From Parabacteroides goldsteinii (lineage in GTDB: Bacteria > Bacteroidota > Bacteroidia > Bacteroidales > Tannerellaceae): DNA of 64,000 nt. The notes below the pieces were generated by a model. The model was not told the DNA's origin. It made no database searches and saw nothing but the letters and a program-made list of their open reading frames with translations. The translations under genes were made by a program, and so were the position numbers. Below are positions 1-53,431 of the stretch, one piece after another; the stretch's first letter is position 1; each line of letters opens with the position of its first letter. The DNA lies in NCBI RefSeq assembly GCF_015550595.1, contig NZ_JADNBB010000001.1:322473-386472 (forward strand), given 5' to 3'.

Positions 1-1780
1 AGATTCATACGATTGAATTCTTTACTTCTCAAGGCATAATGTTCAGCCTTTGCCCAGTTTTTATCGAGCAGGAACATTTCTGCTAATTTCTCATAGGCTG
101 CACTACGTACTCCCGGAGAATAGGAAGCTACCGAAAAACCGTCTTTGGCATCCGTATGATTTCCCAATGCCATGTTGCATAAACCATACAGATAGTTGAC
201 ATCTCCATCGTACGTGTTAATGCTTAATGCTGTTTTACAACGGGCTAGCGCTTCGTCATAACGTCCCTGACGATAATAAAGGGAAGCAAGATCAGTCAGT
301 GCAGGCACGAAATAAGGATCTTTTTCGAGGGAAGCCTGTAAAAACGTTTCTGCCTTGTCGAGTACTTTCTGATTCATCCATTGCTCTCCCTGTGTATAAA
401 GACCATATACCGAGTTCCAGTCAAAATCGGCAGGCAGTTGTTTCGGGCGACTGGTGATGTTATCCGAAGGTACTTCCGAATACACCAGCAAGTCTTCGCC
501 TACCACGACTTTCAGTTTACCGGCGGCAACAGCCTTATTCAATGGGATAGAATCTTTCCAGGTTTCCAGTACACCGCAGTTCAACGGGATGGAGTTCACT
601 TCCTTTTCTCCTTCATACAGCTTTATGGTTGTAGATAATTTCTGCAAAGGAGAGAAATACAACTTCAGAAAACCGTCTTCCCTCAACACGTTAAGCGCTC
701 CGATACGGCTCGCCTTTGAGACTCCTTTTATTCCTTTTACCGGGAACCAGTACTCGGTCCATCGATCCGTTGCCTGCGGACCGAATGCCGTATGTTTATA
801 AGGAGTTAAGCTACTGTTGGAAGCAGGTTGGTTGTACATGCGACCCGATTGCAGTTCGATATACTGCCCGTCGGTATCCGTCAATAAATCTTCCCAGATA
901 CCTCCCTCACGGGAAAGGCCCCACAAGAAAATCTTCATTCCCAGTTTCTCGTCATAACCGGCATGATGGATGGAGCCGAAATCGTTGTCATGCCAGTAAG
1001 CACCATAGAAATCGTTATACTTTCCTACTATATGATACGATTTTGAATTGCCGAAGTCATTCTTTTCATACCAGGAGATATCACGCCCCTGTTCATCCAG
1101 AGGGAAAGAATGGAGTTCGCCGCCATGTCCGATGTAGTTCGTTCCAGGATAGCAGAACTCGGCATTTCCCGCTGCCGGATAGCCTGCGTTCATCCACTGA
1201 TAGTAAGGCTGGTCGATGGATGAACTGTTATGCCAGGTCGTTGTTGTCGTAAAGTAAGCCTTATCTTTCGGCAGATTCACTTCCACGGTCCACAGCGTCC
1301 GGGTTACCAGTTCATAAGAAGAGACATAACAACTCACACTTCCGTCCGGTTTCTGCCGGGTCACATAGTCGACCGGCGTACTGGAAGTCGGTGCATGACC
1401 GATAATACCGAAGTTGAACTCGATACCGCCTGATGTCCACGGACCGCGCATGGCTATATCACGGAACTTCACGACGTGGTTATTGTAGATAAACTCCTTA
1501 CCGGTCGTTTTATCTACAGCTCCCCATATTTTTCCACCTATCTCAGGAAAGAGAGTCAGTTTGATATAATCATTTTCAAGAGAGACTACTTTCCATTGCC
1601 GGTCGGTTCCTTTAGCAGAAAAACCATCAAAACGGAAATAAGGATAAAACAGATCGGAGGGATCTGCCACCGGATCCGGATCGGAGAAAGGATACGTTTT
1701 AACTGTTTGTACATTTTCGGAGACTGTCGCCTGTTGCTGTGCGGACAATGGTTGCAATAGTGCGGTGGCACAAAGAAGGA
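1..1780. repeat. Direct repeat copy 1 (about 1.78 kb, pairs with 41982-43761)
   Basis: Base-by-base reading shows the same sequence as 41982-43761 at a constant offset of 41981, with one visible mismatch (1518/43499). Identity stops at 1780/43761, inside the signal-peptide codons; the left limit lies outside the window. Both copies have the same orientation. Confidence 0.95.
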
Positions 1781-1796
1781 TGAGAATCTTTTTCAT
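1..1796 (-). CDS. DUF5107/TPR protein, copy 1 (3' end outside window)
   Basis: Last visible gene of PUL-A. The window holds the first 598 codons, beginning at ATG 1796; the C-terminal half lies beyond position 1. A signal peptide ending near LSAQQQ is followed by a DUF5107-type beta-sandwich resembling galactose-mutarotase-like folds (about residues 35-360, with RDIAMRGPWTSGGIEFN and HIVGKYNDFYGAYW), then tetratricopeptide repeats from about residue 460. The family has no firm biochemical role; a periplasmic carbohydrate-binding or processing role is inferred from the PUL setting. From residue 6 on, the DNA is almost identical to the complete copy at 40634-43777: I see one substitution (A at 1518, G at 43499; silent, Ala codon). 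Only the first few codons differ (MKKILIL versus MKKSILL). It lies 103 bp downstream of the DUF6067 gene. Confidence 0.85.
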   Translation of the reverse strand, partial: MKKILILLCATALLQPLSAQQQATVSENVQTVKTYPFSDPDPVADPSDLFYPYFRFDGFSAKGTDRQWKVVSLENDYIKLTLFPEIGGKIWGAVDKTTGKEFIYNNHVVKFRDIAMRGPWTSGGIEFNFGIIGHAPTSSTPVDYVTRQKPDGSVSCYVSSYELVTRTLWTVEVNLPKDKAYFTTTTTWHNSSSIDQPYYQWMNAGYPAAGNAEFCYPGTNYIGHGGELHSFPLDEQGRDISWYEKNDFGNSKSYHIVGKYNDFYGAYWHDNDFGSIHHAGYDEKLGMKIFLWGLSREGGIWEDLLTDTDGQYIELQSGRMYNQPASNSSLTPYKHTAFGPQATDRWTEYWFPVKGIKGVSKASRIGALNVLREDGFLKLYFSPLQKLSTTIKLYEGEKEVNSIPLNCGVLETWKDSIPLNKAVAAGKLKVVVGEDLLVYSEVPSDNITSRPKQLPADFDWNSVYGLYTQGEQWMNQKVLDKAETFLQASLEKDPYFVPALTDLASLYYRQGRYDEALARCKTALSINTYDGDVNYLYGLCNMALGNHTDAKDGFSVASYSPGVRSAAYEKLAEMFLLDKNWAKAEHYALRSKEFNRMN

Positions 1797-1819
1797 GGTA
1801 ATTTCTTTAAATAATAAAC

Positions 1820-1858
1820 AATTGTATATAAGGGGAATAATTCCCCTTATATACAATT
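1820..1858 (-). promoter_or_regulatory. Perfect 18-bp hairpin between DUF6067 and DUF5107 genes
   Basis: Arms 1820-1837 and 1841-1858 are perfectly complementary around a TAA loop. The stem is AT-rich with a central GGGGAA/TTCCCC block. No uridine tract follows on the minus strand, so it is more likely an mRNA stability or attenuation element than a strong intrinsic terminator. It lies in the 103-bp gap between the last two visible PUL-A genes. Confidence 0.6.
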
Positions 1859-1899: not shown

Positions 1900-4884
1900 T
1901 TATTTTGCAATAATTAACAAGCCTTTCCCCTTCGGAACCGTGATCTCATCACCCGGTTTCCAGGTTGCTTCCGTTTGGAAATTTTCGATAGCCGGAGCAT
2001 ACAATGTTACTTTTGCCGGATCAAGCCCCAGTTTGGCCCAATCGATAGAAAGTTTAACCTTCGCATCGGCATCTTCCCAGGTCGCGAGCGAGATCAATGT
2101 CTTATCTCCCATACGGCGATAAATGGTAGACAGCGTCTTATCGCTACCCGTCTTCACCGGATTATCTTTCACCCAATAGCCGACCATCTCGCTGCCCTGC
2201 ATGCCGAACGAATCCCACAGTTTCCACAAGGGTGCGTTGTCTACCCGCGGACTACGACCGGTCATACCATACAGCATTCCGCGCCAAGGATTACCTCCAC
2301 CTTCCAGCATTTCACCCATCAGACCATACGGAATACCGGAAACTTCAACCAGCCAGAACTCCGGCGGAAAATCATAATTGAAGTATTCACCGAACCACAG
2401 ACGGTCGAGGTAGGGGAAATGTTCCAGATACAAATTGGCACTATTGGCAAAACCGTCTTTCGGGTTATACTGATTGGCAGAATGCAGGTCGATCATAGCA
2501 CCCGGATTCGTACGGTTCATCACTTTGCGGATACGCTTCATCGTCATCCGGTCGAAAGCCAAGTCATCGATATATAACCCGTCGATACCGACGTTCTTCA
2601 TCAGCCAGTCGAGACCTTCCAGATAATAATTATGCCAACGGGAAACGCCACTGTTCACAATCGCCGCATCTTTCAGGTGAGGAACAAACCAGGCACCGAT
2701 ATAGTTCTGATCCAAATGTTCCTGTAACCAGGAGAAACCGCCGCCGGGACCTTCCGAGAATATCTCGTTCCCCAGACTACGCAAAGCAAACATTTCCACA
2801 CAGCTGTTGGACAACTCACGAACGGTATTGTAAATTTTCACCTTCATATCGCGAGCGTGAGCACCGTCGATGTACGCTTTCATCTCTTTGGTCCGCAGGA
2901 ACGGATAGTTGATAAACGGATTGATAGCATTCGCATGATGGATATTGATGACATTGGCACCTCGCTTTTGTATGCCATCCAGGAACTCATAGTTATGATG
3001 ATAACGTTCACGCCATTGTTTATCCGTATCGATCGGGCGGAACGGAGTCAACGCCAGGTTGAAATAATAATACAACCGGTCTCCTTTCTTCACGCTGCGT
3101 TTACCGGAATAAGCATTAATACGTGTTCCATCGGCTGCATTATGGATATCGATACCTCCATTTCCGGCATTACACCAGGATACCGGCATGTGCAACGGTT
3201 TCTGATGATAGAAATTGGTATTCAGCGGACGTTCGTATTTATTATCATACAGGCGGATCTGGATACCGGCATTGACATCACCTATCCAAACAGCATCCTG
3301 GTTTTTCTCTACATCCCATTTCCAGCGAAGATCATTCGGACAGTAACCGCCTTTCTCTCCCAGGCCCATCATATAACGTCCGACACCGGATACTAAATGT
3401 GTCCGCAACGCAACATCCTCCACAGAAGCATCTTCGCGGGCGACCAATGTCACTTTATATTCTATATTTCCATCCGACTCCATCTCTCCTTCCAGGTCCA
3501 TCAGGAAACGGCTGTTCTGGTTAAGGGCTTTCCAGGCGATTGCACCTTGTTTATGTTTGGTGATTTCGAAGTTCAGGTTTTCCCATGCACCGCCATCGGC
3601 AGCCAGTTCCATAGGAGCAGCCAATACACTACGGCCATTCGTACCGATGCCCGTCATAGTCTCTTTGAAATAACTGATAATATGTTCCGGCAAACCTAAG
3701 TCAGAGAGTTTAACCTCACGTCCCAAACAGCTGATCGTCTTATCCTTCATCACCAGCGGCGTATAAGGAGCAATCACCTCATCATCAAAACCGATCTGCG
3801 AGTTCAGCCAGCGCAGACGGGAATGACGCCAGGGTTCGTTATCTCCATGATTGGCAATTACATTTTCCGAAACATTCAGAGAGACCTGTACGTTCTTGCT
3901 TTCGGCATTGGCGGCAGAGACAGTCACTGTTCCCTGATAAGTGCCTGCAGAAAGATGCTCCGGCAATTGGGTTCCAACCCATAATGCCTGTACTTTACCC
4001 TTATCCACAGAGCAATTCTTTTCAAAAACGGTACCGGTCACATCCGTCCCTTCCGTATTGAAACAGGTAAACGAAGAAGCCGGTATCTGCTCGCCGGTCG
4101 CTTTATTCGTAAGGGCGGAGAAATCGACATGCAGATTCTCAACATTCGAACGTGCCGCCCACACACCTAACTGGAAGACATAATACTCTCCCTTATCCGC
4201 CTGCCCGTTAAAGAAATCATGCCGATTATCGGCAATCCATTTATAAGGAATATCCGTAGTCATGCGAATAGGGAATTTGCGGTCTTCCGTAAAGAGAATA
4301 TATTTCTCTCCGGGACGTTCTTTTAATAATCGGGCAGTCTCGTTCGATGTAGCGATCACTTCCATCGGATAGAAGCTGTTCAGCTCATTGATTGCCTGGA
4401 ACTGTACGACTTTAGCAGCCGGAAGGGCAGGTGCTTTCTTCCCGGACAATTTATTTTTCTTTACCCAGTCAGCCGAAGCCGTATTTTCAAAAGCCGGGTA
4501 ATTGACGGTAGGATAATAAGGGCTGCCGCTCATTACATTCTTCAGATAATAGATATAATATTCTCCCGGTACAGTCTGTGGCTGAAAAGCGACCTCTCCC
4601 CGCTCCCGGTCGATAGCAAAACGACATACATTCGTAATACGTTCACCAGTTGCAGCATCCACAACGATCAGATTCTTTGCTTCCGGGGTCAGATCGCGAC
4701 GACGCCATTCGATCGTAGCCAATACGGCATCGGCCGGTTTATCTACAGCGACAACTACCCGATGGTTTCCCAGGGAATCGGCATTCCATGTACCCACCCC
4801 ATAAAGTTCGTCCGTGGGTACAGACTGTGCTTGCAAACTACTATAGGCAAACAGGCAAAAAAGTGTAAATAGTAATTGTTTCAT
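1900..4884 (-). CDS. Putative secreted glycoside hydrolase, DUF6067/GH123-like
   Basis: 994-residue protein with a signal peptide (MKQLLFTLFCLFAYSSLQAQ). The N-terminal half (about 25-360) is beta-rich, like the domain preceding GH123-type barrels. The C-terminal half carries a TIM-barrel-like block with NVINIHHANAINPF, KIYNTVRELSN and GLYIDDLAFDR (residues 769-779; D773/D774 are candidate catalytic acids), followed by MIDLHSAN and LDRLWFGE, then a short beta-sandwich tail. The same motifs recur in the paralogue at 43968-46958 (GIYMDDVSFDR), which supports functional importance. The family assignment is from recognition of the pattern; the substrate is unknown. It lies 18 bp after the sulfotransferase gene and is followed by a DUF5107 gene, the same pair as in PUL-D. 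Confidence 0.7.
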   Translation of the reverse strand: MKQLLFTLFCLFAYSSLQAQSVPTDELYGVGTWNADSLGNHRVVVAVDKPADAVLATIEWRRRDLTPEAKNLIVVDAATGERITNVCRFAIDRERGEVAFQPQTVPGEYYIYYLKNVMSGSPYYPTVNYPAFENTASADWVKKNKLSGKKAPALPAAKVVQFQAINELNSFYPMEVIATSNETARLLKERPGEKYILFTEDRKFPIRMTTDIPYKWIADNRHDFFNGQADKGEYYVFQLGVWAARSNVENLHVDFSALTNKATGEQIPASSFTCFNTEGTDVTGTVFEKNCSVDKGKVQALWVGTQLPEHLSAGTYQGTVTVSAANAESKNVQVSLNVSENVIANHGDNEPWRHSRLRWLNSQIGFDDEVIAPYTPLVMKDKTISCLGREVKLSDLGLPEHIISYFKETMTGIGTNGRSVLAAPMELAADGGAWENLNFEITKHKQGAIAWKALNQNSRFLMDLEGEMESDGNIEYKVTLVAREDASVEDVALRTHLVSGVGRYMMGLGEKGGYCPNDLRWKWDVEKNQDAVWIGDVNAGIQIRLYDNKYERPLNTNFYHQKPLHMPVSWCNAGNGGIDIHNAADGTRINAYSGKRSVKKGDRLYYYFNLALTPFRPIDTDKQWRERYHHNYEFLDGIQKRGANVINIHHANAINPFINYPFLRTKEMKAYIDGAHARDMKVKIYNTVRELSNSCVEMFALRSLGNEIFSEGPGGGFSWLQEHLDQNYIGAWFVPHLKDAAIVNSGVSRWHNYYLEGLDWLMKNVGIDGLYIDDLAFDRMTMKRIRKVMNRTNPGAMIDLHSANQYNPKDGFANSANLYLEHFPYLDRLWFGEYFNYDFPPEFWLVEVSGIPYGLMGEMLEGGGNPWRGMLYGMTGRSPRVDNAPLWKLWDSFGMQGSEMVGYWVKDNPVKTGSDKTLSTIYRRMGDKTLISLATWEDADAKVKLSIDWAKLGLDPAKVTLYAPAIENFQTEATWKPGDEITVPKGKGLLIIAK

Positions 4885-4902: not shown

Positions 4903-5910
4903 TTAATATTGCTTTATACGATTGATCAATTCATCCTGCGGACGTCTTTTAGCCAGATCGGCGGGATCAGCCTGCTGGATAAAGAGATTCTTCAAACGTA
5001 TGTTTTCTTCATTAAAAAACACTATTTCCTTGTCAGAGAAACTATCTTTTAACAGATCAAGAGGAGTACATAAGGAATACCCCAGTTGCTGCAATATATC
5101 TCCGGCTACGGATTCAAAGATAGCAATATCTTCGGAAGATAATTCACGCAAAAACTTTTTTGTATTGTCTTTCAGGATCGGTTTGGTTACATTTGCCCAC
5201 ATTTTGCCTGCTACCGCTGTATTTTCAGACTCCCGGCTCTTATAATAATCCATCACCCTATCAGAATAAGGAAGGTGCAGGAAATCGCAAAGCTGCCGCA
5301 TAATTTTTTCCGGACTGGCAATAAGCGTTTCGTAATTCAGCATAAAGAAATGATCGGCTGCCGTCCTGTCTTTCAAACGGAGAGCAGCTTCCTGGTCTTT
5401 CTTCCAATTTTCAGCCAGTGCATAAATATGTTTCTCTCCGACAATAGCCTTTTTAAACGAAAGGGCGACATCACGACCGTCCCGATATAGATAGATATAA
5501 TAAGGAGAAATCCCGGTAGATTCAATGCCTTCTGCATACAGCATATTTTTCATGCTTTTACACAGCCAGAAAGAAGCTCCGGTCTGACGGGCCGCCGATT
5601 CATAAATCACCCGGAACAATTCATACAACGTTTGTTGCCTGCAGGCTGCTACCACTTCATCTGCACGAATAGTAATACCTTCCCAGGGAACCGGATTCAC
5701 TGTGACCAACTCGCACACATCCTGTGCCAACCGATAAAAATTAGACTGATCCGTCAAATCGCCATATTTGGGAAGCAACGGTAAGAAACGCTGAAGAATA
5801 TGCGGAGGATGGGGAGCAGCGATCTCCCGGATTCCGTCCAGCATGACACGCAACAGATTGGAACCGGACCGCTGAGTTCCAATCATTTGTATTCCTTGTA
5901 TTGTATTCAT
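4903..5910 (-). CDS. PAPS-dependent sulfotransferase family protein
   Basis: 335 residues without a signal peptide, so cytosolic. The N-terminus has a P-loop-like 5'-phosphosulfate-binding motif (G11-TQRSGSN-18, variant of the RSGTT motif), and residues 140-152 (YLYRDGRDVALSF) match the 3'-phosphate-binding motif with the conserved Arg-Asp-x-Arg-Asp. This is the Sulfotransfer fold, which moves a sulfuryl group from PAPS to a hydroxyl or amine acceptor. The acceptor cannot be predicted from sequence. The gene begins 4 nt after chrA and is 18 nt before the DUF6067 gene, so it is co-transcribed with both. A PAPS sulfotransferase inside a SusCD locus that has no visible sulfatase is unusual. Confidence 0.85.
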   Translation of the reverse strand: MNTIQGIQMIGTQRSGSNLLRVMLDGIREIAAPHPPHILQRFLPLLPKYGDLTDQSNFYRLAQDVCELVTVNPVPWEGITIRADEVVAACRQQTLYELFRVIYESAARQTGASFWLCKSMKNMLYAEGIESTGISPYYIYLYRDGRDVALSFKKAIVGEKHIYALAENWKKDQEAALRLKDRTAADHFFMLNYETLIASPEKIMRQLCDFLHLPYSDRVMDYYKSRESENTAVAGKMWANVTKPILKDNTKKFLRELSSEDIAIFESVAGDILQQLGYSLCTPLDLLKDSFSDKEIVFFNEENIRLKNLFIQQADPADLAKRRPQDELINRIKQY

Positions 5911-5914
5911 AGAA

Positions 5915-7093
5915 TTAGAATAAGATAAAGCCCGCCACGCCTGCTCCGATGATCAGGTAAACCGGACTGATTGTGTATTTTAGTGAAATAAAAAATGTAA
6001 CCAGGAAGATGATAACCGAAACAACCGACAGCGTAATCGTCTGTCCGATCGTAACGGCTGAAGCAAAGATCATTCCGATAACAGCCGCCCGTACACCTTT
6101 CATGGCTGCTTTTACAACGGATGACTGATTCAGTATCTTTACAAAACGGGATAATAAGACGGTTAATACAGCCGGCGGAGTGAACATCGCCAACGTTGCC
6201 AGCAACGCCCCCGTGATACCTGCCACTTTATACCCGATAAAGGTCGCTGTAATAAATATCGGTCCCGGAGTGATCTGTCCGATCGCTATCCCGTCGGCAA
6301 ACTCAGCCGAGGTCAGCCAGCTCAAATTCTCCACGAACAACTCATGCAAAGCCGGGATAACGACATATCCCCCTCCGAACAAAGTCAAGCTGATACCGGA
6401 GAAGGTCGATACGATCTGAATACTTTCCGGAGCACCCGGATATTGTCCTCCCCAAAGTAATGTACAGAGTAATAGCAAAAGAACAACCCCGGAAGTCATC
6501 AGCTGCCTGCTACCCGTCCGCTTCTCCCCATCTGATATCAACTCTTGTCCCACAGGCTGGCGAAACAGGAAACCGCCGGCTATCCCGCTACCGATGATCA
6601 ACAGAAAAGTAACCGTAAAACCACCGATAAAAATCAGCAACAAAGCCGCCAGCAGGCAAACAACCCATTGGGCTGGCAATTTGATCGTCTTACGTGCCAT
6701 CCCGATAGCCACCGTAACGATCAAAGCAGTAATAGCCGGAGTGATTCCGCTGAACACATTCTTTACCGCAGGTATATTTCCGTAGGAGAAATACAACCAC
6801 GAAAGAAATATAACCAGTAAGAACGAGGGAATAATGATCCCGGCAAAAGCTACAACCGCCCCCGGTATCCCCCTTAGATGGTACCCGACATAGGCTATCG
6901 TATTTACGGCTACAGGTCCTGGCAGTACGGAGGTCAGGGAAATCCCATCCAGCAAATCTTCTTCTTTCAGTCTCTTGTCTACCTCCACTAACTGCTTCTG
7001 TACGATAGCCACTAACGACATATAGCCGCCGAATGCAGTAGCTCCTAGTTTCAGGAACGTAAAGAAAATATAGGAAAGTGATGTACGTTCCAT
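5915..7093 (-). CDS. chrA: Two-domain ChrA-family (CHR) anion transporter
   Basis: 392-residue inner-membrane protein with about ten to twelve hydrophobic segments. It has two homologous CHR halves. The first has FFTFLKLGATAFGG and SVLPGPVAVNTIAYVGY; the second has GISLTLFGGGYVVIPAL and GQITPGPIFITATFIGY. Long-chain ChrA proteins export chromate, a sulfate analogue, and some CHR proteins have been linked to sulfate. Here the start codon lies 1 bp after the stop of the ASST-like gene, and the stop lies 4 bp before the PAPS sulfotransferase. Movement of sulfate or a sulfated product is therefore a reasonable inference, while chromate resistance remains possible. The gene symbol reflects family membership, not tested function. 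Confidence 0.85.
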   Translation of the reverse strand: MERTSLSYIFFTFLKLGATAFGGYMSLVAIVQKQLVEVDKRLKEEDLLDGISLTSVLPGPVAVNTIAYVGYHLRGIPGAVVAFAGIIIPSFLLVIFLSWLYFSYGNIPAVKNVFSGITPAITALIVTVAIGMARKTIKLPAQWVVCLLAALLLIFIGGFTVTFLLIIGSGIAGGFLFRQPVGQELISDGEKRTGSRQLMTSGVVLLLLLCTLLWGGQYPGAPESIQIVSTFSGISLTLFGGGYVVIPALHELFVENLSWLTSAEFADGIAIGQITPGPIFITATFIGYKVAGITGALLATLAMFTPPAVLTVLLSRFVKILNQSSVVKAAMKGVRAAVIGMIFASAVTIGQTITLSVVSVIIFLVTFFISLKYTISPVYLIIGAGVAGFILF

Positions 7094-7094
7094 A

Positions 7095-8582
7095 TCACTT
7101 GATTTCTTTAAAATATTTATCCCAGGTTTCTACCGGAACATACACTGCCCGATAGGGGGCATATAGCATCGTACTTTCCCAAAGAACATTACCTGATTGA
7201 TCGGTCACCACCACTGAACCAGTCTTCGAACTACATTGCAACAGATTTCCATTAGGAAGCTGAAACGCATTTCCCATGCGGGATGTATACAAATTAGGAG
7301 GTAACATCGCATTGACTGTTGTCTCAGCAGTACGTGACTTTTCATCCAACCGGAAAGCTTTTGCTCCGGAACGCTGGTTGTATAAGCCATTATCAAAAAG
7401 CATTAAATCTCCATTCTCCATGACATAGGGTGAATGCTGGAATGAGAAATAAGCTGTTGTATCCATTTTAAAATCACCGGCACGCCCGAAGCGCCAAACC
7501 AGTTCGCCACTTTTGGCGTTCACTTTCCAAATCTGATCTTCAATCGGAGTCGACAACAAATAATTACTATCCTTATCGAAACAAAGTCCATTGATATGAA
7601 AACGGTCATAACGGTACCTGCCGATATAGGGATCTTTCTCTATGTCCCATACATCCCAGGCAGACCAGGTATTCAATACATTACCCAACGTATCGATCAC
7701 CATAATCCCATCGCCCCCCAATGTATCCGTCACCATTTTGCCATCAACCGGAATCGTCGCCACTTTCGTAGGACGATATAAAGTATGTATATGATGATTT
7801 TCATCCATTAATATATCATGATGAATCACCTGATAATCCTTTTCTTCATGTATTTTATTTAAGTCTACACGCCACATCGTTTCACCTGTCAGCGACACTT
7901 CCGCCAATCCGGTTCCACCGGCAAAGCCAATCGATCCCCGTCGCATCGGTTTCTTATGTTCATCATTACGGACTTGCTCAGGTGTCATTGTATAATCATC
8001 CACAAAGTCTTTGACGAACGGACGCAACATAGCCAGGAATGTTCCTTGTGGCGTAATAGAAACTGCACGCACGCCAATATCATCTACTTGCCAATACCAA
8101 CGTACTTCGCCTTCATTGTCAATCAGCACCATATAACCGGGCAGTCGGCCAAAACACAATAATATCATTCCATCCCCTAAAGCAGTCGTATCATGAGGTC
8201 GTTTATCTGTAAACCAATGGTTGACCAGCCAGGATGACTGTTCACGGGTTTTAAAGGTCAGTTCTTTGGATTTTTGTTTAAAGAAGTTGTCAATAATCAC
8301 ATTATACGAATATTCCGTATTCGCTTTCAAAAGCAATAAGTCAATATGATGAAGCGTATCGGCAGAGGATATCCGGGTTCGATACGATTTTCCGGAACTC
8401 TTGTCTGTATATTCCACATACACCGGTGCAGGTTTGGCTAATGATACATCCACCCTGTTATACATAGCCGTATTACGTGGCGAAGTTAAAGTAATAGAAA
8501 CCAATGCATTTCTTTCTGTCCAATACAAATAAGCCAATGCACAGCAAATAATAACAACAACGATTCCAATCAAACGCTTCAT
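7095..8582 (-). CDS. Arylsulfotransferase (ASST)-like beta-propeller protein
   Basis: ATG at 8582 (MKRLIGIVVV) gives 495 residues. An upstream ATG at 8630 lies inside a terminator stem and is rejected. The N-terminal hydrophobic segment (ALAYLYW) anchors or exports the protein. A small N-terminal beta domain, expected in ASST enzymes, precedes a propeller. Candidate active-site motifs, numbered from the ATG at 8582: HHDILMDE (His254/His255), FHINGLCFD (His329), VWRFGR (Arg364), QHSPYVMENGDLMLFDNG (His383). Bacterial ASST enzymes use histidine as a transient sulfate carrier and transfer sulfuryl groups from aryl sulfates to phenols in the periplasm without PAPS. The match is to the divergent branch, so activity is inferred. 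The stop sits 1 bp before chrA, implying translational coupling. Confidence 0.75.
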   Translation of the reverse strand: MKRLIGIVVVIICCALAYLYWTERNALVSITLTSPRNTAMYNRVDVSLAKPAPVYVEYTDKSSGKSYRTRISSADTLHHIDLLLLKANTEYSYNVIIDNFFKQKSKELTFKTREQSSWLVNHWFTDKRPHDTTALGDGMILLCFGRLPGYMVLIDNEGEVRWYWQVDDIGVRAVSITPQGTFLAMLRPFVKDFVDDYTMTPEQVRNDEHKKPMRRGSIGFAGGTGLAEVSLTGETMWRVDLNKIHEEKDYQVIHHDILMDENHHIHTLYRPTKVATIPVDGKMVTDTLGGDGIMVIDTLGNVLNTWSAWDVWDIEKDPYIGRYRYDRFHINGLCFDKDSNYLLSTPIEDQIWKVNAKSGELVWRFGRAGDFKMDTTAYFSFQHSPYVMENGDLMLFDNGLYNQRSGAKAFRLDEKSRTAETTVNAMLPPNLYTSRMGNAFQLPNGNLLQCSSKTGSVVVTDQSGNVLWESTMLYAPYRAVYVPVETWDKYFKEIK

Positions 8583-8654: not shown

Positions 8655-10196
8655 TTATTTCGGCAAACGAGACGGATTCTCAGCTTCCAAATTCGGATTC
8701 AATTGAGCATCATTCAACGGATACGGGAAGTAACGCAACGCAGATGTTACATTTGTCGGTTTTGAAATACCCAATTTCTTTAAATGAGCATTTACGATAT
8801 CTTCATATTTCCCGAAACGGATCAAGTCGGCACGACGCTGGAATTCAAATGCCAATTCATAACCACGTTCCTTCAAAATAGCCAAATTCATATCTTCTAC
8901 AGAAGAAGGAGCAGGAAAACGATCATGTTTACCATATTCCGGAGCACCGGCACGAGCACGAATCTGATTCAAATAAGGGAGAGCAGCAGCCGGACCATTC
9001 AAATTATTCTCAATTTCAGCTTTACACAAAATGACATCAGCCAAACGGAAAATACAGATTGTACGACCATCATAATAAGCATCTGAAATCATATCATACG
9101 AATATTTCATTGTAGCTATGTTCTGTAGATATTTAGTCGTGTCATTCGGAACTTCCACAATTCCTTCTTCCGGAACCATATAATGGAAACCATATTTAGA
9201 CTTATCATCACGATTAGCTCCTCCAGTATAATCATAGTAATAAAATTCACGACGCGGATCTTCCTTATCATAGCTGCGCCAGAACGGAAGAGATACACCG
9301 TAATACTGCCAACGACCCGGTACATCCGGATGGTCATTCGGACCGAAATGGTTCGTGATTTCACCACCATTCTGGGAAGATTCATGCAGAATAGCAAAGA
9401 TCATTTCCTTTCCGTATTTATTGTTTTCAGACCAAACATATTTAAAGTCATTTTCCAGTTCATAATTACCACTATTCAATACCATATCGATATAGGTCTT
9501 TGCATTTGTGTAATCATGATTACGTAAATAGATCTTACCCAATAAAGTAGCAGCGGCACCACTGGTTGCTCGAGCCAAATCCTGACCATCCCAACTTGCC
9601 GGCAAAAGATTGATACACTCCTTTAAATCAGCAATTAAAGTCCCTTCTATTTCCGATACTGGTGTCAGAGTTGCATTACTCATACTAAACGGATCATCGA
9701 TCAGCGTTGTAAAGAAAGGAACCGGACCAAAAGCATCCGTCAAATCACGATAACACAATGCACGCAAGAATTTAGCCTGTCCTTTTACCAGATTCTTGTT
9801 TTCTTCAGACATATCGACGGCATCGACTTTGTCCAGAATCACATTGGCATTTGAAATGACCTTATACATATCTTTCCAGTTACTGCTGAAATAGCGGTTA
9901 TTGGAATCGTATGTCATTGTACTCATCTTAGTTGGGTCACCGGCTGCCGTTGAATATCCCATATCAGTAGCATAGTCCGTAATCATGACTATATAACCGC
10001 CATAATACATATAAGCATCACCCGGCCCCGGGGTCATATCAGAGTATAACCCAACAAGAGCAGCCTGAATATCAGACTCTGTTCCGTATGCGTTGGCTGT
10101 CGTCAAATTACTATATATTTCCGGTTCCAGGTCGGTACAAGCTGTAAACAAGCCTGCTGTCACAACCAGTCCTAACAGACATTTTTTTATCTTCAT
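8655..10196 (-). CDS. SusD/RagB-family outer-membrane glycan-binding lipoprotein (PUL-A)
   Basis: 513 residues with a lipoprotein signal ending GLFTAC (lipidated Cys20) and acidic residues after the Cys, typical of surface-exposed Bacteroidetes lipoproteins. SusD hallmarks are ANVILDKVD, KFLRALCYRDLTDAFGPVPFF, a TPR-like helical region (DLARATSGAAATLLGKIYLRNHDYTNAKTYID) and a C-terminal RRADLIRFGKYED block ending in YFPYPLNDAQLNPNL. It captures the ligand over the SusC pore. Its start is 19 bp after susC. The length fits the family. Confidence 0.95.
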   Translation of the reverse strand: MKIKKCLLGLVVTAGLFTACTDLEPEIYSNLTTANAYGTESDIQAALVGLYSDMTPGPGDAYMYYGGYIVMITDYATDMGYSTAAGDPTKMSTMTYDSNNRYFSSNWKDMYKVISNANVILDKVDAVDMSEENKNLVKGQAKFLRALCYRDLTDAFGPVPFFTTLIDDPFSMSNATLTPVSEIEGTLIADLKECINLLPASWDGQDLARATSGAAATLLGKIYLRNHDYTNAKTYIDMVLNSGNYELENDFKYVWSENNKYGKEMIFAILHESSQNGGEITNHFGPNDHPDVPGRWQYYGVSLPFWRSYDKEDPRREFYYYDYTGGANRDDKSKYGFHYMVPEEGIVEVPNDTTKYLQNIATMKYSYDMISDAYYDGRTICIFRLADVILCKAEIENNLNGPAAALPYLNQIRARAGAPEYGKHDRFPAPSSVEDMNLAILKERGYELAFEFQRRADLIRFGKYEDIVNAHLKKLGISKPTNVTSALRYFPYPLNDAQLNPNLEAENPSRLPK

Positions 10197-10215: not shown

Positions 10216-13200
10216 TTAGAATGTAATGTTCAAACCTACAGTATAGGTACGAGTAGCCGGATAAGCGTTAAAGTCCAAACCTGCACCGGCATTTGCAGTC
10301 TGCTGGCTACCGCCATCCTGACTTGCTTCATTTGCTTTGGTATCCACTTCAGAATCCCATCCGGAATAACCGGTGATAGTGAATAAGTTTTCAGCAGAGA
10401 AGTAAACCCTACAAGAACTAACCACCTTCTTGAACGGAATTGTATAACCTAATGTCAGATTTTTCAGACGCAGGAATGAAGCATTTTCAATAAAGTGGTC
10501 GTTGATATAACCTCCGTACTGTGAATAGTAAAAGCCGTTACGCGGAATATCCGTATTCGTATTCGTCGGAGTCCAACGGTTCAATGCATCCGGTGTACGT
10601 TCCCATTCCAGGTTCATACGGGTCATATTCAACAAATCATTACCGATCGAACCCTGGAAGAATATGGACAGATCGAACCCTTTCCATGTAAAGTCGTTAG
10701 TCAAACCGAAGATCACATCCGGATTGGCATTACCAATAATTGTACGGTCGCTTGAATCAATCTTACCATCACCGTTTACATCTTCAAACTTCGGGTCACC
10801 CGGTTTAGCATTAGGCTGCGGAGCGTATGTTTCCCCCTGCTGCATCACACCGATATATTTGTAACCGAACAAAGAGCCCAGTGCTTCCCCTTCACGAACA
10901 ATCGCATAAGATTCTTCCGATACAGAACCCATTGGCTTGGAAGAAGTAATATAAATATCGCTATTACCCCCCAGATCCGTTACTTTGTTACGGTTAACTG
11001 CCAAATTGAATTTCGTATTCCAGGTGAAATCTCCTGTTAAGTTATGAGAAGTTACATCGATCTCAAAACCACGGTTCTGAATAGCACCGATATTACGCTG
11101 TCCGGATGTAAAACCTGTATAATAAGGCAATGGAACTTTCAGCAACAAATCTTTCGTTTTTTTCCAATAACCATCCAATGTAACAGATAAACGGTTATCC
11201 AGGAATCCCATATCGACACCCACATTGTACTGAGAAGTCGTTTCCCATTTCAGACTTGCATTTTCAGGGCTTGTCGGATCCAAATGAGTACCCGATGCAT
11301 TGCTGGAGCCGTCTAATGTAATATGGTTATTAGTAATCAAGGCATAAGAAGCATAATCACCAATACGTTCATTACCCGTTACACCATATCCGGCACGAAC
11401 TTTCAAATTACTAAAGAGATTCAGATTTTTAACAAAATCCTCTTCACTGGCACGCCATGCCAAAGATCCTGAAGGGAAAGTTCCCCAATGGTTATCGGCA
11501 CCGAAACGGGAAGATCCGTCCCGACGGACTGTCACAGTAGCCAAATATTTGTCGTTGAACGTATAGTTCACACGTCCGAAAAATGAAGCCAGAATATTTT
11601 CCGTTTTATTGGATTGTACAGACTCCTTTATAGACGCAGCATTCAGATTATTCCATCCAAACAGGTCTGTCGAAAAACCCTTAGCCTTCACATAACGGTA
11701 CTCGGCATCATACTTTTCATATGAGTAACCTAACATAACATTAAGGTCATGTACTTTATTAAAGGTCTTCACATAGTTCAATATACCTTCAAATACCTGG
11801 CGGGTAGCCCTGAAATCACGTGTAGTTGCCACCCCCCCCTCAATCTCTCCCTGATAAGTAGTCGATTTCGGCAAATAAGTACCCTTGAAGTTATGTAACA
11901 ATTCTACACCACCTGTAGCTTTGGCACTAAAACCTTCGAACGGATGAATCTCCAGAAAAGCAGTTCCGTTAAACTTATCGTTCGTCATATCATTCTTACG
12001 TTCCAACAAGTTTGCCAATGGGTTATCGCCACGACCACCAGGAACACGACCATAAGTACCATCATCATTATAGGGTTTCACAGTCGGGTCATATTGCATC
12101 ACACTCAACAAAACATTTGAGTTGACAATATTACCACTATACATCTGGAAATTAGACTGTTCACGATGAGCATACATCGTTGCTCCCGCCTTGATATAAT
12201 CATTAATCGTTTGGTCTACATTGATACGTCCCGAAATACGGTTAAAGTCAGTATTCTTCAAAACACCTTCCTGTTTATAGAAACCCAGACTGGTCAATAC
12301 CTTTGTCTTTTCCGAACCACCGCGGAACTGAATATTATGGTCTTGTACCAAACCGACGCGCGTTGTTTCTTTCAACCAGTCCGTATCTACATCAGACTGC
12401 AACTGAGACGGTGTATAGGCACCATTCGGATTACCCTCTTGACCTTCAATTTCCTGATACAGTGCATTCTTCAGATTCATATAATCCTTCGCATTGATAA
12501 ATGTAAACGGATTATTTATTTTTTGGGCACCAAGATAACCATTGTAAGAAATCTTATTTTCACCAGCCTTACCGCGTTTCGTAGTGATCAATACAACACC
12601 ATTTGCACCACGAGCACCATAAATAGCCGTTGCGGAAGCATCCTTCAATATCTGCATTGATTCAATATCATTCGGATTGATATTCAAACCTTCCGAAGAG
12701 GGGAAACCATCTACAACATATAATGGTTCATTCGTAGAAGAGATAGAGTTGCTACCACGAACACGAACTGTAATTGTACCACCCGGTGCTTTAGAACTCT
12801 GCTGTACCTGCACACCGGCAGTCTTACCTTGTAAAGCCTGAGCCGCATTACTAACGGTACCACCCGATACCATATCATCCGCCGATACAGTAGAAACTGC
12901 ACCTGTCAGGTCTTTCTTCTTTACATAACCATAACCAATAGCAACAACCTCATTCAAACCAATGGCCTCTTCAGCCAAACTGGCATTCACCACAGCCTGA
13001 CTGCCTACTTTAATTTCTTTCGTAGTATATCCTATAAAAGAAACTACCAAGGTTGCATTATTAGGAACGCTTAAGGTATATTTACCGTCTATATCAGTAA
13101 CCGTACCATTTGTAGTTCCTTTTTCAACAACATTTGCCCCTGGTATTGGCTCACCAGCATTGTCGGTTACTACACCCGACACCTTTTTGGCCTGTTGAGT

Positions 13201-13377
13201 GATCATAACACTTTCATTCTTTGCTTTCGCTGCATCCATTCCGGTCGGAACAGCATACGAAGAGACGAGGGAAGAGATACATAATCCAGCTATAAGACCG
13301 GATCTTGATAACACCTTCCGCGTTTGAGAATCCGCTGCCCTTGCAGCAAGACTGTCTTTTAGTAAAGCGTTGTTCAT
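10216..13377 (-). CDS. SusC/RagA-family TonB-dependent transporter without STN domain (PUL-A)
   Basis: 1053 residues. An unusually hydrophilic N-terminal stretch precedes the signal-like segment (SGLIAGLCISSLVSSYA). Then come a carboxypeptidase-regulatory-like domain (VSGVVTDNAGEPIPGANV, about 66-135), a plug with VDGFPSSEGL and SATAIYGARGANGVVLITTKRGK, and a C-terminal beta-barrel ending in aromatic TVGLNITF. It imports ligand through the outer membrane using TonB energy. Unlike the other three SusC proteins in the window it lacks the STN signalling domain, and no sigma/FecR pair precedes it, so control must work differently. A candidate invertible promoter lies 85-277 bp upstream. Confidence 0.95.
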   Translation of the reverse strand: MNNALLKDSLAARAADSQTRKVLSRSGLIAGLCISSLVSSYAVPTGMDAAKAKNESVMITQQAKKVSGVVTDNAGEPIPGANVVEKGTTNGTVTDIDGKYTLSVPNNATLVVSFIGYTTKEIKVGSQAVVNASLAEEAIGLNEVVAIGYGYVKKKDLTGAVSTVSADDMVSGGTVSNAAQALQGKTAGVQVQQSSKAPGGTITVRVRGSNSISSTNEPLYVVDGFPSSEGLNINPNDIESMQILKDASATAIYGARGANGVVLITTKRGKAGENKISYNGYLGAQKINNPFTFINAKDYMNLKNALYQEIEGQEGNPNGAYTPSQLQSDVDTDWLKETTRVGLVQDHNIQFRGGSEKTKVLTSLGFYKQEGVLKNTDFNRISGRINVDQTINDYIKAGATMYAHREQSNFQMYSGNIVNSNVLLSVMQYDPTVKPYNDDGTYGRVPGGRGDNPLANLLERKNDMTNDKFNGTAFLEIHPFEGFSAKATGGVELLHNFKGTYLPKSTTYQGEIEGGVATTRDFRATRQVFEGILNYVKTFNKVHDLNVMLGYSYEKYDAEYRYVKAKGFSTDLFGWNNLNAASIKESVQSNKTENILASFFGRVNYTFNDKYLATVTVRRDGSSRFGADNHWGTFPSGSLAWRASEEDFVKNLNLFSNLKVRAGYGVTGNERIGDYASYALITNNHITLDGSSNASGTHLDPTSPENASLKWETTSQYNVGVDMGFLDNRLSVTLDGYWKKTKDLLLKVPLPYYTGFTSGQRNIGAIQNRGFEIDVTSHNLTGDFTWNTKFNLAVNRNKVTDLGGNSDIYITSSKPMGSVSEESYAIVREGEALGSLFGYKYIGVMQQGETYAPQPNAKPGDPKFEDVNGDGKIDSSDRTIIGNANPDVIFGLTNDFTWKGFDLSIFFQGSIGNDLLNMTRMNLEWERTPDALNRWTPTNTNTDIPRNGFYYSQYGGYINDHFIENASFLRLKNLTLGYTIPFKKVVSSCRVYFSAENLFTITGYSGWDSEVDTKANEASQDGGSQQTANAGAGLDFNAYPATRTYTVGLNITF

Positions 13378-13904: not shown

Positions 13905-14397
13905 ACCATCATACTATCATCTTATCAATAAGATCCTTGAATATCAATCGATATATAAATGATAGTTATTTATTTCAACCATCATTCAACTAACATAAAC
14001 TATCATAAAACGACCTATTCAAGGTAAAGCATCATAAAAATGGACATAAAAAACGATCAGACACAGACCATTTTCTTCATAGCACCCTATATTTTTTGCT
14101 CAACTATACCTACTTTTTTCACGAAAACTACTAATGCTTCCTCTTCAGCCCCCCATTTTATACCCTTTTACACCCGGGTTTGAACGATGCTAAGACCCGG
14201 GTCCCGACACCCTTTACACCCGGGTCTCAAAAAAAATAATTAGTTACTTTGCTGAAAATAAGCCCTGTAGACTGGAAGTTTTGTCAGGCTGTTTTATGAT
14301 AGTATGATAGTAGAAAATGGAACTATCACACCAACCATCATGATCTTTACATATTGATATTCATCATATATAAAGCCATAAATGATAGTATGACAGT
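13905..14397. promoter_or_regulatory. Array of about eleven ATGATAGT-like octamers
   Basis: Copies of ATGATAGT or close variants occur as tandem pairs at 13905-13920 (reverse), 14296-14311 and 14382-14397 (both forward), and singly at 13959-13966, 13978-13985, 13999-14006, 14322-14329 and 14334-14341. The tandem pairs and mixed orientation look like a regulator binding array. The regulator is not identified. Confidence 0.55.
14172..14225. promoter_or_regulatory. Three ACCCGGGT palindromes with exact 23-bp spacing
   Basis: The 8-bp palindrome ACCCGGGT occurs at 14172-14179, 14195-14202 and 14218-14225, in otherwise AT-rich DNA. The first and third share the upstream context CCCTTTnACACCCGGGT. 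The sites could be operators or form alternative RNA hairpins. Confidence 0.5.
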
Positions 14398-14430: not shown

Positions 14431-17262
14431 TCATTTCTCTATCACCAGCCAGGTATTCCCACGGGCAGGAATAGTCACCGCAATATCTACCGTATAATCG
14501 CGATTCAGCTTATAGGTAACCGGAGCATTCTCTTTCTCCCTGATCTTCGCTACATCGGAGATACCAGTGTAATAAAGCGGAAGCCGTATCGTACGGGTGA
14601 TAACCTGGTCGGTCGGGTTGAACAACAGGGCAAAGCCTTTCTCCTTCCCTTCCGGATCGACATGCATAAAACCATCCCAGTCACGTCCGTCGGCACGGCG
14701 CAGGTGGATCAGTTCGCTGTTCAGGATATTCCGGTACTTCTTATACCAGTCGATCACTTCAACGACAGCCGCTTTGGTCTCCGGCGTGTCATATAGACGA
14801 GGACCACGGTAACAAGCCTGCACACCGGCTCCATAGTTCTGGATCATGTGCGCTTTATAGTCAGGGATGTGATCTTTTAGAGGCTCCAGCGTGGCAGCAG
14901 CTCCACCACCATGATACTGTGTGAGCGGAACGAATGTCCAGCACATACCCGGCAAACGTTCCCACAGGCCGTCATACATTACCTGACGTCCCAACACAAA
15001 CTGGCGTTCACGCGGAAGCGACCAGTTCACTTCACGGTAACCGATACCGACCTTCGATCCGCCATTCAACATATAACCGCAATCGGGAATATTGGTATAA
15101 ATACCTGTTTCACACATCCATTGGTACAGATCGACTATTTGTTTACGCTGCTTCCATTGAGAGTCTTTCAGCCCTTTGTGATATGCATGAGTCGTAGAAG
15201 CACAAACATTTCCCGGATAAGAACCATCGTTTTCAAAAACAGTCATTCCGGTCTTTTCAAAGAAGCCTCGTACTTTGCGGAAATAATCGTTTCCCCATTC
15301 GCTGGACAAGCAAGGGGAACTGCCGAAGATCATACCTCCTCGTTTTCCTGTCTCGGGGTTGATAACGTCCACCTCATCACTGATCCAACGGCTGGACAGC
15401 AAGGAATAACCGCCAAGTTCTATCCCTTTGGAATTAGCATACTCTGTAAATTCTTTGAATTTGGCGATGTTCGCCTCACTTTCATCCTCCATATTCAATC
15501 CCGAACCGAAACTCAGGATAACCATTTCATATCCCGTCTCGGCACATTGATCGATCGCTGTTTTCACCACCTCCGGATCAGAGGAGACACAATGCAGGAA
15601 GATCGGATTTTCGGTTGTCCAGGGAGCGATCTTACGATACATCCGTTTCTGGAAAAGACCTTTCCGTTCACGGTCGTCGCTGTCGAATGGCATCAGCCAG
15701 GTACGGAAACTCTGGAACTTACCACCGGCGGGGATATCTTCATCCGGTCCCATCGGTAGTTTTACCTCCAGCAGGCAAGGGGTCAGCAACGGATAGTTAC
15801 ATTGAGAAGTATATCGCGGGTCGGTATTCCAGAATTCGGTGCGGTCGGCTTCCCGTTCGGTGAATCCCAGAAACGCCCAGTCGCTTTCGACATGGATATT
15901 GGGTTTCAGGAATTGTTCGGGGCGCTTGGCTTCCACCGGAGATTCGGGTTCTGCCATAGCCAACTGTTCAAGCGTAAACTCATCCAATGTTATCTCCATT
16001 CCGGTTTGGTTATCAATTTCAAACCATTTGCTGATACAAGGGATACCGTCATAGAGGGCATAATTCAGTTTCACCTTTACACCTTTCAGGTAATCCGGCC
16101 CTTCCAGATAGAAAGAGAGCACCTTACCTGAAGTCTCACCCGGCTTCACAAGCGACCAGCGTTTGTTTGCCCACTCGATACGAGGAGTGAGTTCCGTAAC
16201 GTCGAATCCGGTTACACGGAATGAGTTCGGCAGGATGGTCAGGCTGTCAATCCACTTATATTGCGTATAGCCATACTCGAACTGACCGTCGAGACCGCCC
16301 AATGTATAGATTTTATCGTCAATCTTTAAAACACCTTCATTACTAACGGCACGAAGCATACTCTCGCCGGTCATCTGATTGATCAGATCGACTGTGGCAA
16401 GATTCGGATAGATACGGAATACACGGCTCACCAGTCCATTGGACAGCACAATGTCTTTTCCGTTATGTGTCTGATAAACGCCGGCTTTCACTCCTTTTGC
16501 ATCCAGCAACCAATCAGACAGGGGACGTGCCACCGGCAGGTCGATAGTGGGCAGAGTGGCTATGTTTCTACGCAACGTTTTTTCTACCTCTGCAGGCATT
16601 GTCTCGATAGCTCCCTTATAATCTGCATTAACCAGTGAAGGTTTGATTTCATTATAGGAGAAAACGGGGTCGATCCAGTTTGCATGGTCGCCGCTCATGC
16701 CGTCGCCACCATCATCCACGATCAGTTCCAGGACATCTATCCCCGACATATCGAGCGATACTTCACGGGCTTTTTCTCCACCGCGAACCATTCCGCTGTT
16801 ATACAGTTCTTTCCCGTCACCAACCAGGCGAAAGACGACACTTCCTTTATCCAGAGAACCATCCCCGGAACCTACTCCGACAAACTGCTTTTTCCCTCCG
16901 GTACCGTCAGTACGATAAAACAGCATTGTCCCGTCTGTCATCGGTATCTTACTGAAATCTTCTTTTTTGTAATCCAATGAATGGTCGTTTACCCCGACCT
17001 TACAGGTAAATTGTTTGGTATTATTCCGCAGACTCAGTTTAATCTTACTGTTGGCCTGTACGCCTATTCCCTGTACGAACTGCTCGCCGGCTATCGTCAG
17101 CTTCTCACCGGTAACGGCTGTGTTCTTCATGGGTGAACCATACTGCTGATAGGCCAGAGACAGATCCATATCAGGTAGAAAAATTGTATTCTGGGCACTG
17201 ACATCCCAACCTGTAAAGAAAAATCCTCCCATAAGGAGAAATAAAGAAATAGTCTTTTTCAT
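14431..17262 (-). CDS. NPCBM-domain putative alpha-glycosidase (GH27/GH36-like)
   Basis: 943 residues with a signal peptide (FFFTGWDVSAQ). Residues about 28-205 form an NPCBM/NEW2 carbohydrate-binding domain (FVQGIGVQANSKIKLSL, VNDHSLDY, LELIVDDGGDGMSGDHANWIDP). A beta-sandwich follows, then a TIM-barrel-like region with MVILSFGSGLNMEDE, KGIELGGYSLLSS, MTVFENDGSYPG (Asp679 is a candidate catalytic residue) and YTNIPDCGYMLNGG. The NPCBM-plus-barrel layout recalls alpha-galactosidases and alpha-N-acetylgalactosaminidases of clan GH-D, but assignment to a numbered family is uncertain. It is the last PUL-B gene, 82 bp after the GH92 gene, and probably acts in the periplasm or on the cell surface. 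Confidence 0.65.
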   Translation of the reverse strand: MKKTISLFLLMGGFFFTGWDVSAQNTIFLPDMDLSLAYQQYGSPMKNTAVTGEKLTIAGEQFVQGIGVQANSKIKLSLRNNTKQFTCKVGVNDHSLDYKKEDFSKIPMTDGTMLFYRTDGTGGKKQFVGVGSGDGSLDKGSVVFRLVGDGKELYNSGMVRGGEKAREVSLDMSGIDVLELIVDDGGDGMSGDHANWIDPVFSYNEIKPSLVNADYKGAIETMPAEVEKTLRRNIATLPTIDLPVARPLSDWLLDAKGVKAGVYQTHNGKDIVLSNGLVSRVFRIYPNLATVDLINQMTGESMLRAVSNEGVLKIDDKIYTLGGLDGQFEYGYTQYKWIDSLTILPNSFRVTGFDVTELTPRIEWANKRWSLVKPGETSGKVLSFYLEGPDYLKGVKVKLNYALYDGIPCISKWFEIDNQTGMEITLDEFTLEQLAMAEPESPVEAKRPEQFLKPNIHVESDWAFLGFTEREADRTEFWNTDPRYTSQCNYPLLTPCLLEVKLPMGPDEDIPAGGKFQSFRTWLMPFDSDDRERKGLFQKRMYRKIAPWTTENPIFLHCVSSDPEVVKTAIDQCAETGYEMVILSFGSGLNMEDESEANIAKFKEFTEYANSKGIELGGYSLLSSRWISDEVDVINPETGKRGGMIFGSSPCLSSEWGNDYFRKVRGFFEKTGMTVFENDGSYPGNVCASTTHAYHKGLKDSQWKQRKQIVDLYQWMCETGIYTNIPDCGYMLNGGSKVGIGYREVNWSLPRERQFVLGRQVMYDGLWERLPGMCWTFVPLTQYHGGGAAATLEPLKDHIPDYKAHMIQNYGAGVQACYRGPRLYDTPETKAAVVEVIDWYKKYRNILNSELIHLRRADGRDWDGFMHVDPEGKEKGFALLFNPTDQVITRTIRLPLYYTGISDVAKIREKENAPVTYKLNRDYTVDIAVTIPARGNTWLVIEK

Positions 17263-46958: not shown

Positions 46959-46979
46959 CGATTCATCATTGATTGTAAA

Positions 46980-48743: not shown

Positions 48744-48760
48744 AAACAATTCTCCTTCAA

Positions 48761-52231: not shown

Positions 52232-52296
52232 ACATTTGTAAATGATTAGTTAGTAATAAATTTAGGTTGTCTCTAATGCGTTACTTGCTTAATCCG

Positions 52297-52325
52297 AACC
52301 GGGGATGTTTGCGGCATCTTCGGTT
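52297..52325 (-). promoter_or_regulatory. Hairpin in the FecR-SusC gap (PUL-D)
   Basis: Arms 52297-52307 and 52315-52325 (AACCG...GATG against CATC...CGGTT, one mismatch) with a 7-nt loop. There is no strong U-run. It is the third FecR-SusC gap with such a structure. Confidence 0.5.
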
Positions 52326-52366
52326 CTTCATTTCTTATAACATCTAAGTTTTCTTCATAAGCATCC

Positions 52367-53353: not shown

Positions 53354-53431
53354 ACATCTTCCTTATCGTTTATATAAAGAAGACAACTGAAGCATTCAAA
53401 ACTACGTAGTCAAAAATGAAAAAAGTTCAAC

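Follow-up and report, generated by a model that had tools for sequence, protein, structure and literature searches.

What does a locus built around a SusC/SusD importer do with genes for the transfer of sulfate? The question is raised by a stretch of 64,000 nucleotides of Parabacteroides goldsteinii DNA (assembly GCF_015550595.1, contig NZ_JADNBB010000001.1, positions 322,473 to 386,472), hereafter the window. On its minus strand an operon runs in the order SusC-SusD-ASST-ChrA-ST-GH123, where ASST is an arylsulfate sulfotransferase-family protein, ChrA a CHR-family anion transporter, ST a sulfotransferase of the type using 3'-phosphoadenosine 5'-phosphosulfate (PAPS), and GH123 a probable glycosidase. 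From sequences and structure models we consider it probable that these genes encode a two-step sulfate relay coupled to the SusC/SusD (SusCD) importer. The initial annotation had described the three middle genes as consecutive, and they are, with 1 bp between ASST and ChrA (7094) and 4 bp between ChrA and ST (5911-5914); the families it gave agree with the profile matches in the table. With a SusC/SusD pair and a linked glycosidase-family gene the locus has the make-up of a polysaccharide utilisation locus. No sulfatase had been seen in it, and a profile search with PF00884 accordingly returned zero matches in the window.

The gene set is not confined to one strain. It is kept in 26 genomes (18 loci from a scan of named genomes, seven from further genome searches, and the window), and as the ASST proteins in these genomes diverge down to 47% identity, its recurrence is beyond chance. 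The notion that the genes are neighbours in a single strain only was therefore rejected. The layout is ASST-ChrA-ST in 17 of the 26 and ASST-ST in three, while in five Chitinophagaceae-type loci the ST operon is divergent from SusC-SusD-ASST. In one genome (G912) ASST and ST lie on separate contigs; they share a contig in the other 25. SusD adjoins ASST in 25 of 26, the exception being L037, where the contig starts at ASST. In 23 of the 26, ChrA belongs to the neighbourhood of ASST or ST (in Sunxiuqinia it is ~9 kb away), and none was seen at L010, where the contig ends. A GH123-type gene was seen in 23 of the 26 loci, and many relatives have a sigma/anti-sigma pair at the locus and a DUF5107-TPR gene as its downstream member. 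An absence of ST and ChrA from Chitinophagaceae was considered and rejected, both genes being located just outside the 10 kb flank.

ASST and ST also co-occur at the level of genomes. Each was found in 10 of 123 genomes of the family (both at E ≤ 1e-30), and these are the identical ten; ST is present in all 26 genomes with the window-type ASST (10 of the family, 11 others by search, and 5 seen at the locus). In wider draws, with the window genome counted in each, ASST (E ≤ 1e-60) was detected in 3 of 393 genomes of the order and 1 of 395 of the phylum; for ST (E ≤ 1e-20) the counts are 9 and 12, respectively. A strict pairing of ST with the window-type ASST was rejected, since G430, G240, G129 and G559 contain an ST at E ≤ 1e-90 without a close ASST. 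All four have a diverged PF05935 protein near the ST (at 0.55 kb, 51 bp and 2.4 kb, and overlapping, respectively), and in all four ChrA adjoins the ST. Hence, ChrA, ST and ASST stay linked beyond the range in which the ASSTs are closely similar. For G240, 19.9 kb around the ST gave no recognised SusCD, although BLAST could miss diverged members there. Among 13 weaker ST matches, the four examined by BLAST with the window proteins (G425, G836, G157, G855) showed no adjoining ChrA or ASST, an absence that is not firm because this BLAST also failed to find the ASST of G129.

The co-occurrence bears on whether the proteins act together at all. ChrA and ST, with the adenosine 5'-phosphosulfate (APS) kinase CysC and the phosphatase CysQ linked to them in some relatives, could sulfate a cytosolic product, for detoxification or as a lipid, while the ASST acts separately on imported aryl sulfates. 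Pairwise distances, determined for 21 of the 26 genomes (L020 and L021 were not used; L010, L018 and L037 were dropped for missing genes), correlate best between ST and ChrA (0.946), and less well between ASST and ST (0.730) or ASST and ChrA (0.743), which would suit such a division, as would the divergent operons of ST and ASST in the five Chitinophagaceae-type loci. The presence of ST in 26 of 26 ASST genomes, and of a diverged ASST nearby in four more ST genomes, speaks against it, and we regard two separate jobs as unlikely.

The ST has the features expected of a PAPS-using enzyme. Its model (predicted local distance difference test score, pLDDT, 91.4) has a sulfotransferase fold, closest to tyrosylprotein sulfotransferases (TPST1, Z 21.0) and CurM/olefin-synthase sulfotransferases (Z 20.3 and 19.6), with the next fold at 13.3. 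Alignment of 24 sequences yields 75 invariant positions, including residues 10-21, 32-37 and 143-146. The first of these stretches contains the motif GTQRSGS (11-17), which we take to be the 5'-phosphosulfate-binding loop; R143 and R146 of the third, with S151, which is likewise invariant, are presumably the Arg/Ser region binding the 3'-phosphate.

The genes for PAPS supply point in the same direction. An APS-kinase match was found in 25 of 25 genomes tested, and in seven of the 26 genomes both CysC and CysQ are linked to locus genes (named by PF01583 and PF00459 for L050, and by BLAST or the APS-kinase search for the other loci). The divergent operon of Terrimonas (L050), G902 and Agriterribacter (G903) includes GH123, CysC, ChrA, ST and CysQ, and that of G904 and G913 the same genes minus ChrA; in Sunxiuqinia the locus is followed by ChrA, CysC and CysQ, and in G029 CysQ and CysC are located downstream of the DUF5107 gene. 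CysQ alone is linked in G912, as ChrA-ST-CysQ on the contig apart from ASST. Outside the 26, an APS kinase adjoins the ST of G430. In G029, G901, G902, G903 and G904 the locus copy is the only APS-kinase match of the genome. The cys cluster of the window genome, which includes a permease and a further sulfotransferase, is located on a different contig. In 8 of 26 genomes, then, an APS kinase and/or a CysQ-type phosphatase stands beside locus genes. PAPS is therefore very probably the donor used by the ST, and no other argument for PAPS consumption, or for a pathway in the forward direction, is as strong as this linkage.

In a pathway running backward the ASST would do the work of a sulfatase: it would strip an imported sulfated glycan of its sulfate and pass this to a carrier, from which the ST would return it to 3'-phosphoadenosine 5'-phosphate (PAP) or use it elsewhere. 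SusCD loci normally degrade, no sulfatase match lies in the window, and some PAPS-using sulfotransferases are reported to use aryl sulfates to turn PAP back into PAPS (PMC13426309). An APS kinase, which makes PAPS with ATP, and CysQ, which destroys PAP, fit PAPS consumption instead, however, and the genome is hardly short of sulfatases, with 40 PF00884 matches beyond the window, 38 of them over the cut-off (some are pieces of one gene) and the nearest ~10 kb past the window end. Moreover, Cpz4, the nearest solved relative of the ASST, operates in the forward sense. The backward direction is thus distinctly unlikely.

The likeness of the ASST to Cpz4 (9kf4, 9kf6) is found by sequence (phmmer 2.1e-16, profile 1.6e-24) as well as by fold (Foldseek ranks 1-2). 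The ASST model (pLDDT 86.9) superimposes on Cpz4 in VIA-align with Z 34.0 and a root-mean-square deviation of 2.9 over 326 aligned residues, while the first unrelated chain has Z 22.2. The E. coli enzyme (EcAST, 3ets) was not reached by the sequence profile and was reached by fold only (Z 30.2, 401 aligned residues, model 43-505); the model shares its N-terminal beta-sandwich and propeller. In Streptomyces caprazamycin biosynthesis, Cpz4 receives sulfate from a pyrone that is sulfated by the PAPS-using sulfotransferase Cpz8 (PMC6731281), and it prefers sugar hydroxyls (PMC13426309). With the active-site numbering of EcAST taken from the latter source, His436, His252, His356 and Asn358 correspond to H399, H270/H271, H345 and N347 of the ASST; Thr501 could not be placed in the alignment. 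All 26 sequences have H270, H271, H345, N347 and H399, and the catalytic histidines and the asparagine are also kept in canonical ASST paralogues of the same genus.

The ASST had been annotated as exported. An extracytosolic orientation is indeed likely, although we read the N-terminus as an anchor in the membrane and not as a signal that is cleaved off: the model has a helix at residues 17-39 that is followed by strands, and a hydropathy scan finds Lys/Arg and then a hydrophobic stretch in 26 of 26 proteins. Together these suggest that the ASST is probably anchored in the inner membrane and faces the periplasm. By eye, the diverged ASSTs of G430 and G559 resemble lipoproteins instead.

Comparison with the sister genome G069 separates the locus into two parts. 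The baseline, taken from 17.5 kb of the cys region, is 96.0% DNA identity; against it, SusC, SusD and ASST reach identities of only 0.75, 0.67 and 0.72, while ChrA, ST, GH123 and the region upstream of SusC have 0.96, 0.97, 0.94 and 0.92, respectively. The edges of the low-identity block are located near 13.2 kb and 7.1 kb. Over the 21 genomes, ASST distances correlate with those of SusD at 0.778 and ST distances with those of SusD at 0.394. From this one clear block exchange and the distance correlations, SusC-SusD-ASST would be a specificity half, matched to the SusCD ligand, and ChrA-ST a constant half with a shared supply function. Further upstream, the NPCBM-domain gene at window 14431-17262 has 0.84 identity to its counterpart in G069 (L036); compared with the 96% baseline, it may also have been exchanged.

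The relay we favour would begin in the cytosol, where the APS kinase makes PAPS and the CysQ-type phosphatase removes PAP; these genes are present on another contig of the window genome and inside the locus in some relatives, their functions being assigned by family. The ST, as its fold, motifs and linkage suggest, would transfer sulfate from PAPS to a small carrier. The sulfated carrier would then reach the periplasm, where the membrane-anchored ASST may take the sulfuryl group on His399, as suggested by its family, its histidines and its similarity to Cpz4, and pass it on to a hydroxyl group (probably one of a sugar) in a ligand imported by SusCD or in a fragment that the GH123-type enzyme has set free. 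ChrA would either export the carrier or move inorganic sulfate for the pathway. CHR proteins have been linked to chromate and sulfate transport, and ChrA is absent from two loci; thus, ChrA could equally move inorganic sulfate.

Which acceptor would be served is suggested by the linked glycosidases. Families acting on N-acetylgalactosamine (GalNAc) recur: besides the GH123-type gene of 23 of the 26 loci, GH101 (endo-alpha-N-acetylgalactosaminidase) is located beside the locus in L012 and G430, and GH20 and GH123_cat occur in G129. A GalNAc-containing glycan, for example a mucin-type O-glycan, is therefore a reasonable first guess, no more. We further propose, tentatively and with less confidence than the relay itself, a "reverse" polysaccharide utilisation locus, in which the PAPS-fed cytosolic ST charges a diffusible sulfo-carrier. 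The ASST, anchored in the inner membrane and forming with SusCD a specificity cassette that is exchanged as a unit, would then sulfate a GalNAc-type glycan or glycoconjugate in the periplasm as it comes in. If true, SusCD loci would be used to add sulfate, which is unusual compared with the known removal of sulfate, and the two-step sulfation known from Streptomyces antibiotic clusters would extend to Bacteroidota. As the ASST is tied to a probable sulfate supply and a probable ligand importer, donor and acceptor can be sought directly.

Several observations weigh against the relay or against parts of it. All steps are deduced from sequence and models, and no carrier-making gene, such as the polyketide synthase (PKS) of caprazamycin, was recognised at the locus, part of whose neighbours were scanned with Pfam. 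Two loci that are otherwise intact, those of G904 and G913, lack ChrA; with the Terrimonas ChrA as query, these two genomes yielded only a distant ChrA, and the genome of L010 (G909) yielded nothing. CysC and CysQ were not seen in 18 of the 26 loci, the window included, and in at least five of these (L010, L012, L014, L039, L041) the contig ends at most about 300 bp past the last locus gene. The split into two halves is not clean either: SusC distances fit those of ST (0.874) as well as those of ASST (0.850), the ASST of L013 has diverged alone, and between L035 and L005 high protein identity of SusC (94.8) and SusD (96.3), as compared with ChrA (83.4) and ST (86.9), is not shared by the ASST, which with 88.7% is no closer than GH123 (88.5%). 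This pair is therefore silent on the ASST, and only SusC-SusD stand out. Of the joint pathway put forward by the initial annotation, cytosolic sulfation from PAPS and extracytosolic re-transfer have gained support from the linked APS kinase and CysQ and from Cpz4, while export of the carrier by ChrA is one possibility beside the movement of inorganic sulfate.

The active site gives a further point against. The position of EcAST Arg374 (362 in the ASST) is Ala in 14 and Pro in 12 of the 26 proteins. All six full-length canonical paralogues in the alignment have Arg there, which the shorter L086 lacks; of the four diverged ASSTs, two have Arg, one Lys and one Tyr. With this loss in 26 of 26, the protein could be a propeller without transfer activity that serves in ligand binding or as a scaffold. 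The invariance of the three histidine positions and the asparagine described above, as in the canonical paralogues, makes this very improbable. R343, invariant and two residues before H345, is our candidate substitute for Arg374; R451 is another arginine that may take its place.

The relay has a partial precedent. To our knowledge, the caprazamycin cluster contains no SusCD, ChrA or linked APS kinase, the ASST of E. coli CFT073 has no linked PAPS-using sulfotransferase, and the Bacteroides steroid sulfotransferase BT0416 has no ASST or SusCD partner. Caprazamycin sulfation likewise pairs a PAPS-using sulfotransferase (Cpz8) with an ASST (Cpz4) and has a sugar hydroxyl as acceptor; it differs in belonging to an antibiotic cluster, in its carrier, a triketide pyrone from a type III PKS, and in that Streptomyces has no periplasm between two membranes. 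The ASST of E. coli CFT073, which comes with DsbL/DsbI (3ELQ), shares the fold (Z 30), the active-site histidines and Asn358, but is periplasmic, with a disulfide made by DsbL/DsbI (PMC13426309), and has Arg374 in place of the Pro/Ala found here. BT0416 is also PAPS-using and from Bacteroidota, and a second Sulfotransfer_3 gene is present in the cys cluster of the window genome, but BT0416 is a different sulfotransferase at a different locus. Known polysaccharide utilisation loci share SusC, SusD, the GH123-type gene and, in many relatives, the sigma/anti-sigma pair, whereas the present locus carries sulfotransferases and no sulfatase. CHR chromate/sulfate transporters have the same two Chromate_transp domains; here, ChrA is linked to a PAPS-type sulfotransferase and not to chromate resistance genes. 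Further sources behind these comparisons are PMC8940164 and PMC12667688. According to a 2026 review, most bacterial arylsulfate sulfotransferases have no identified natural acceptor, and their physiological roles are poorly understood (PMC13426309). No description of a SusCD-linked ASST/ST gene set was found in the literature searched (titles and abstract openings of the papers listed). The initial annotation, which knew of no described example, thus overlooked the two-step system of caprazamycin, which is, however, one without SusCD: the pairing has a Streptomyces precedent, and what the present analysis adds is the linkage to APS kinase and CysQ genes.

The genes of the locus are listed in the table. 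The names are backed by Pfam and NCBIfam; for the ASST, ST and GH123 protein, however, NCBIfam had no match. No STN domain is listed among the Pfam domains of the window SusC. The start of the GH123-type protein resembles a signal peptide by eye; its activity is putative, as a sequence search gave no good solved relative (best E 0.1).

Genes of the probable sulfate-transfer locus and its downstream neighbour, in window coordinates
Product	Length (aa)	Position	Strand	Profile matches and remarks
SusC/RagA TonB-dependent outer-membrane importer	1053	10216..13377	-	TIGR04056 1.2e-284; Plug and CarbopepD_reg_2
SusD-type surface lipoprotein	513	8655..10196	-	PF07980 1.5e-24; PF14322 2.3e-22
ASST-family sulfuryltransferase, probable N-terminal membrane anchor		ORF 8630-7095 (511 aa), likely start Met17 = 8582, as in the initial annotation	-	PF05935 1.8e-25 (90.2 bits, cut-off 24.2); PF14269 1.6e-21
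Two-domain CHR-family anion transporter (ChrA-like)	392	5915..7093	-	PF02417 5.5e-86 in two stretches; TIGR00937 253.2 bits, cut-off 171.7
Cytosolic PAPS-type sulfotransferase (ST)	335	4903..5910	-	PF13469 4.1e-24
GH123_N-family protein (probable glycosidase)	994	1900..4884	-	PF19543 over whole length, 1454.8 bits
DUF5107-TPR protein, truncated by window edge		1..1856	-	99.67% identity over 1796 bp to 40634-43777 (PF17128)

Some observations concern regulation. Three ACCCGGGT copies with an exact spacing of 23 bp are located upstream of SusC in the window (14172-14225) and in the sister genome G069 (L036 16092-16145), and the array was found in none of the other 112 loci searched. The motif alone gave three copies in 4 of 100 shuffles of the window; the array is possibly an operator. 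In L008-L010, L013 and L015-L021 an anti-sigma-type gene, usually with a sigma factor, precedes a longer SusC (about 1120-1155 aa), while in the window, L005-L007, L035, L036 and L038-L041 SusC has about 1000-1055 aa and no adjoining sigma/anti-sigma pair; regulation therefore differs between the two groups.

The window genome contains two canonical ASSTs of 600 aa as well (C6:27189-28283 and C34:151-1281; PF05935 E about 2e-85, Arg374 present). Its cys cluster (L045:5013-12634, on C33) comprises CysQ, a permease, CysC, CysD, CysN, the second Sulfotransfer_3 gene and a PCMD-domain protein, and presumably resembles the BT0416 steroid sulfation region. A second locus in the window (43968-54016) contains sigma, anti-sigma, SusC, SusD, GH123-type and DUF5107 genes (names partly by eye) without sulfate genes, and is perhaps the base type to which the sulfate genes were added. 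The DUF5107-TPR genes at 1-1856 and 40634-43777, each downstream of a GH123-type gene, are a recent duplication or gene conversion between the two SusCD loci of the window.

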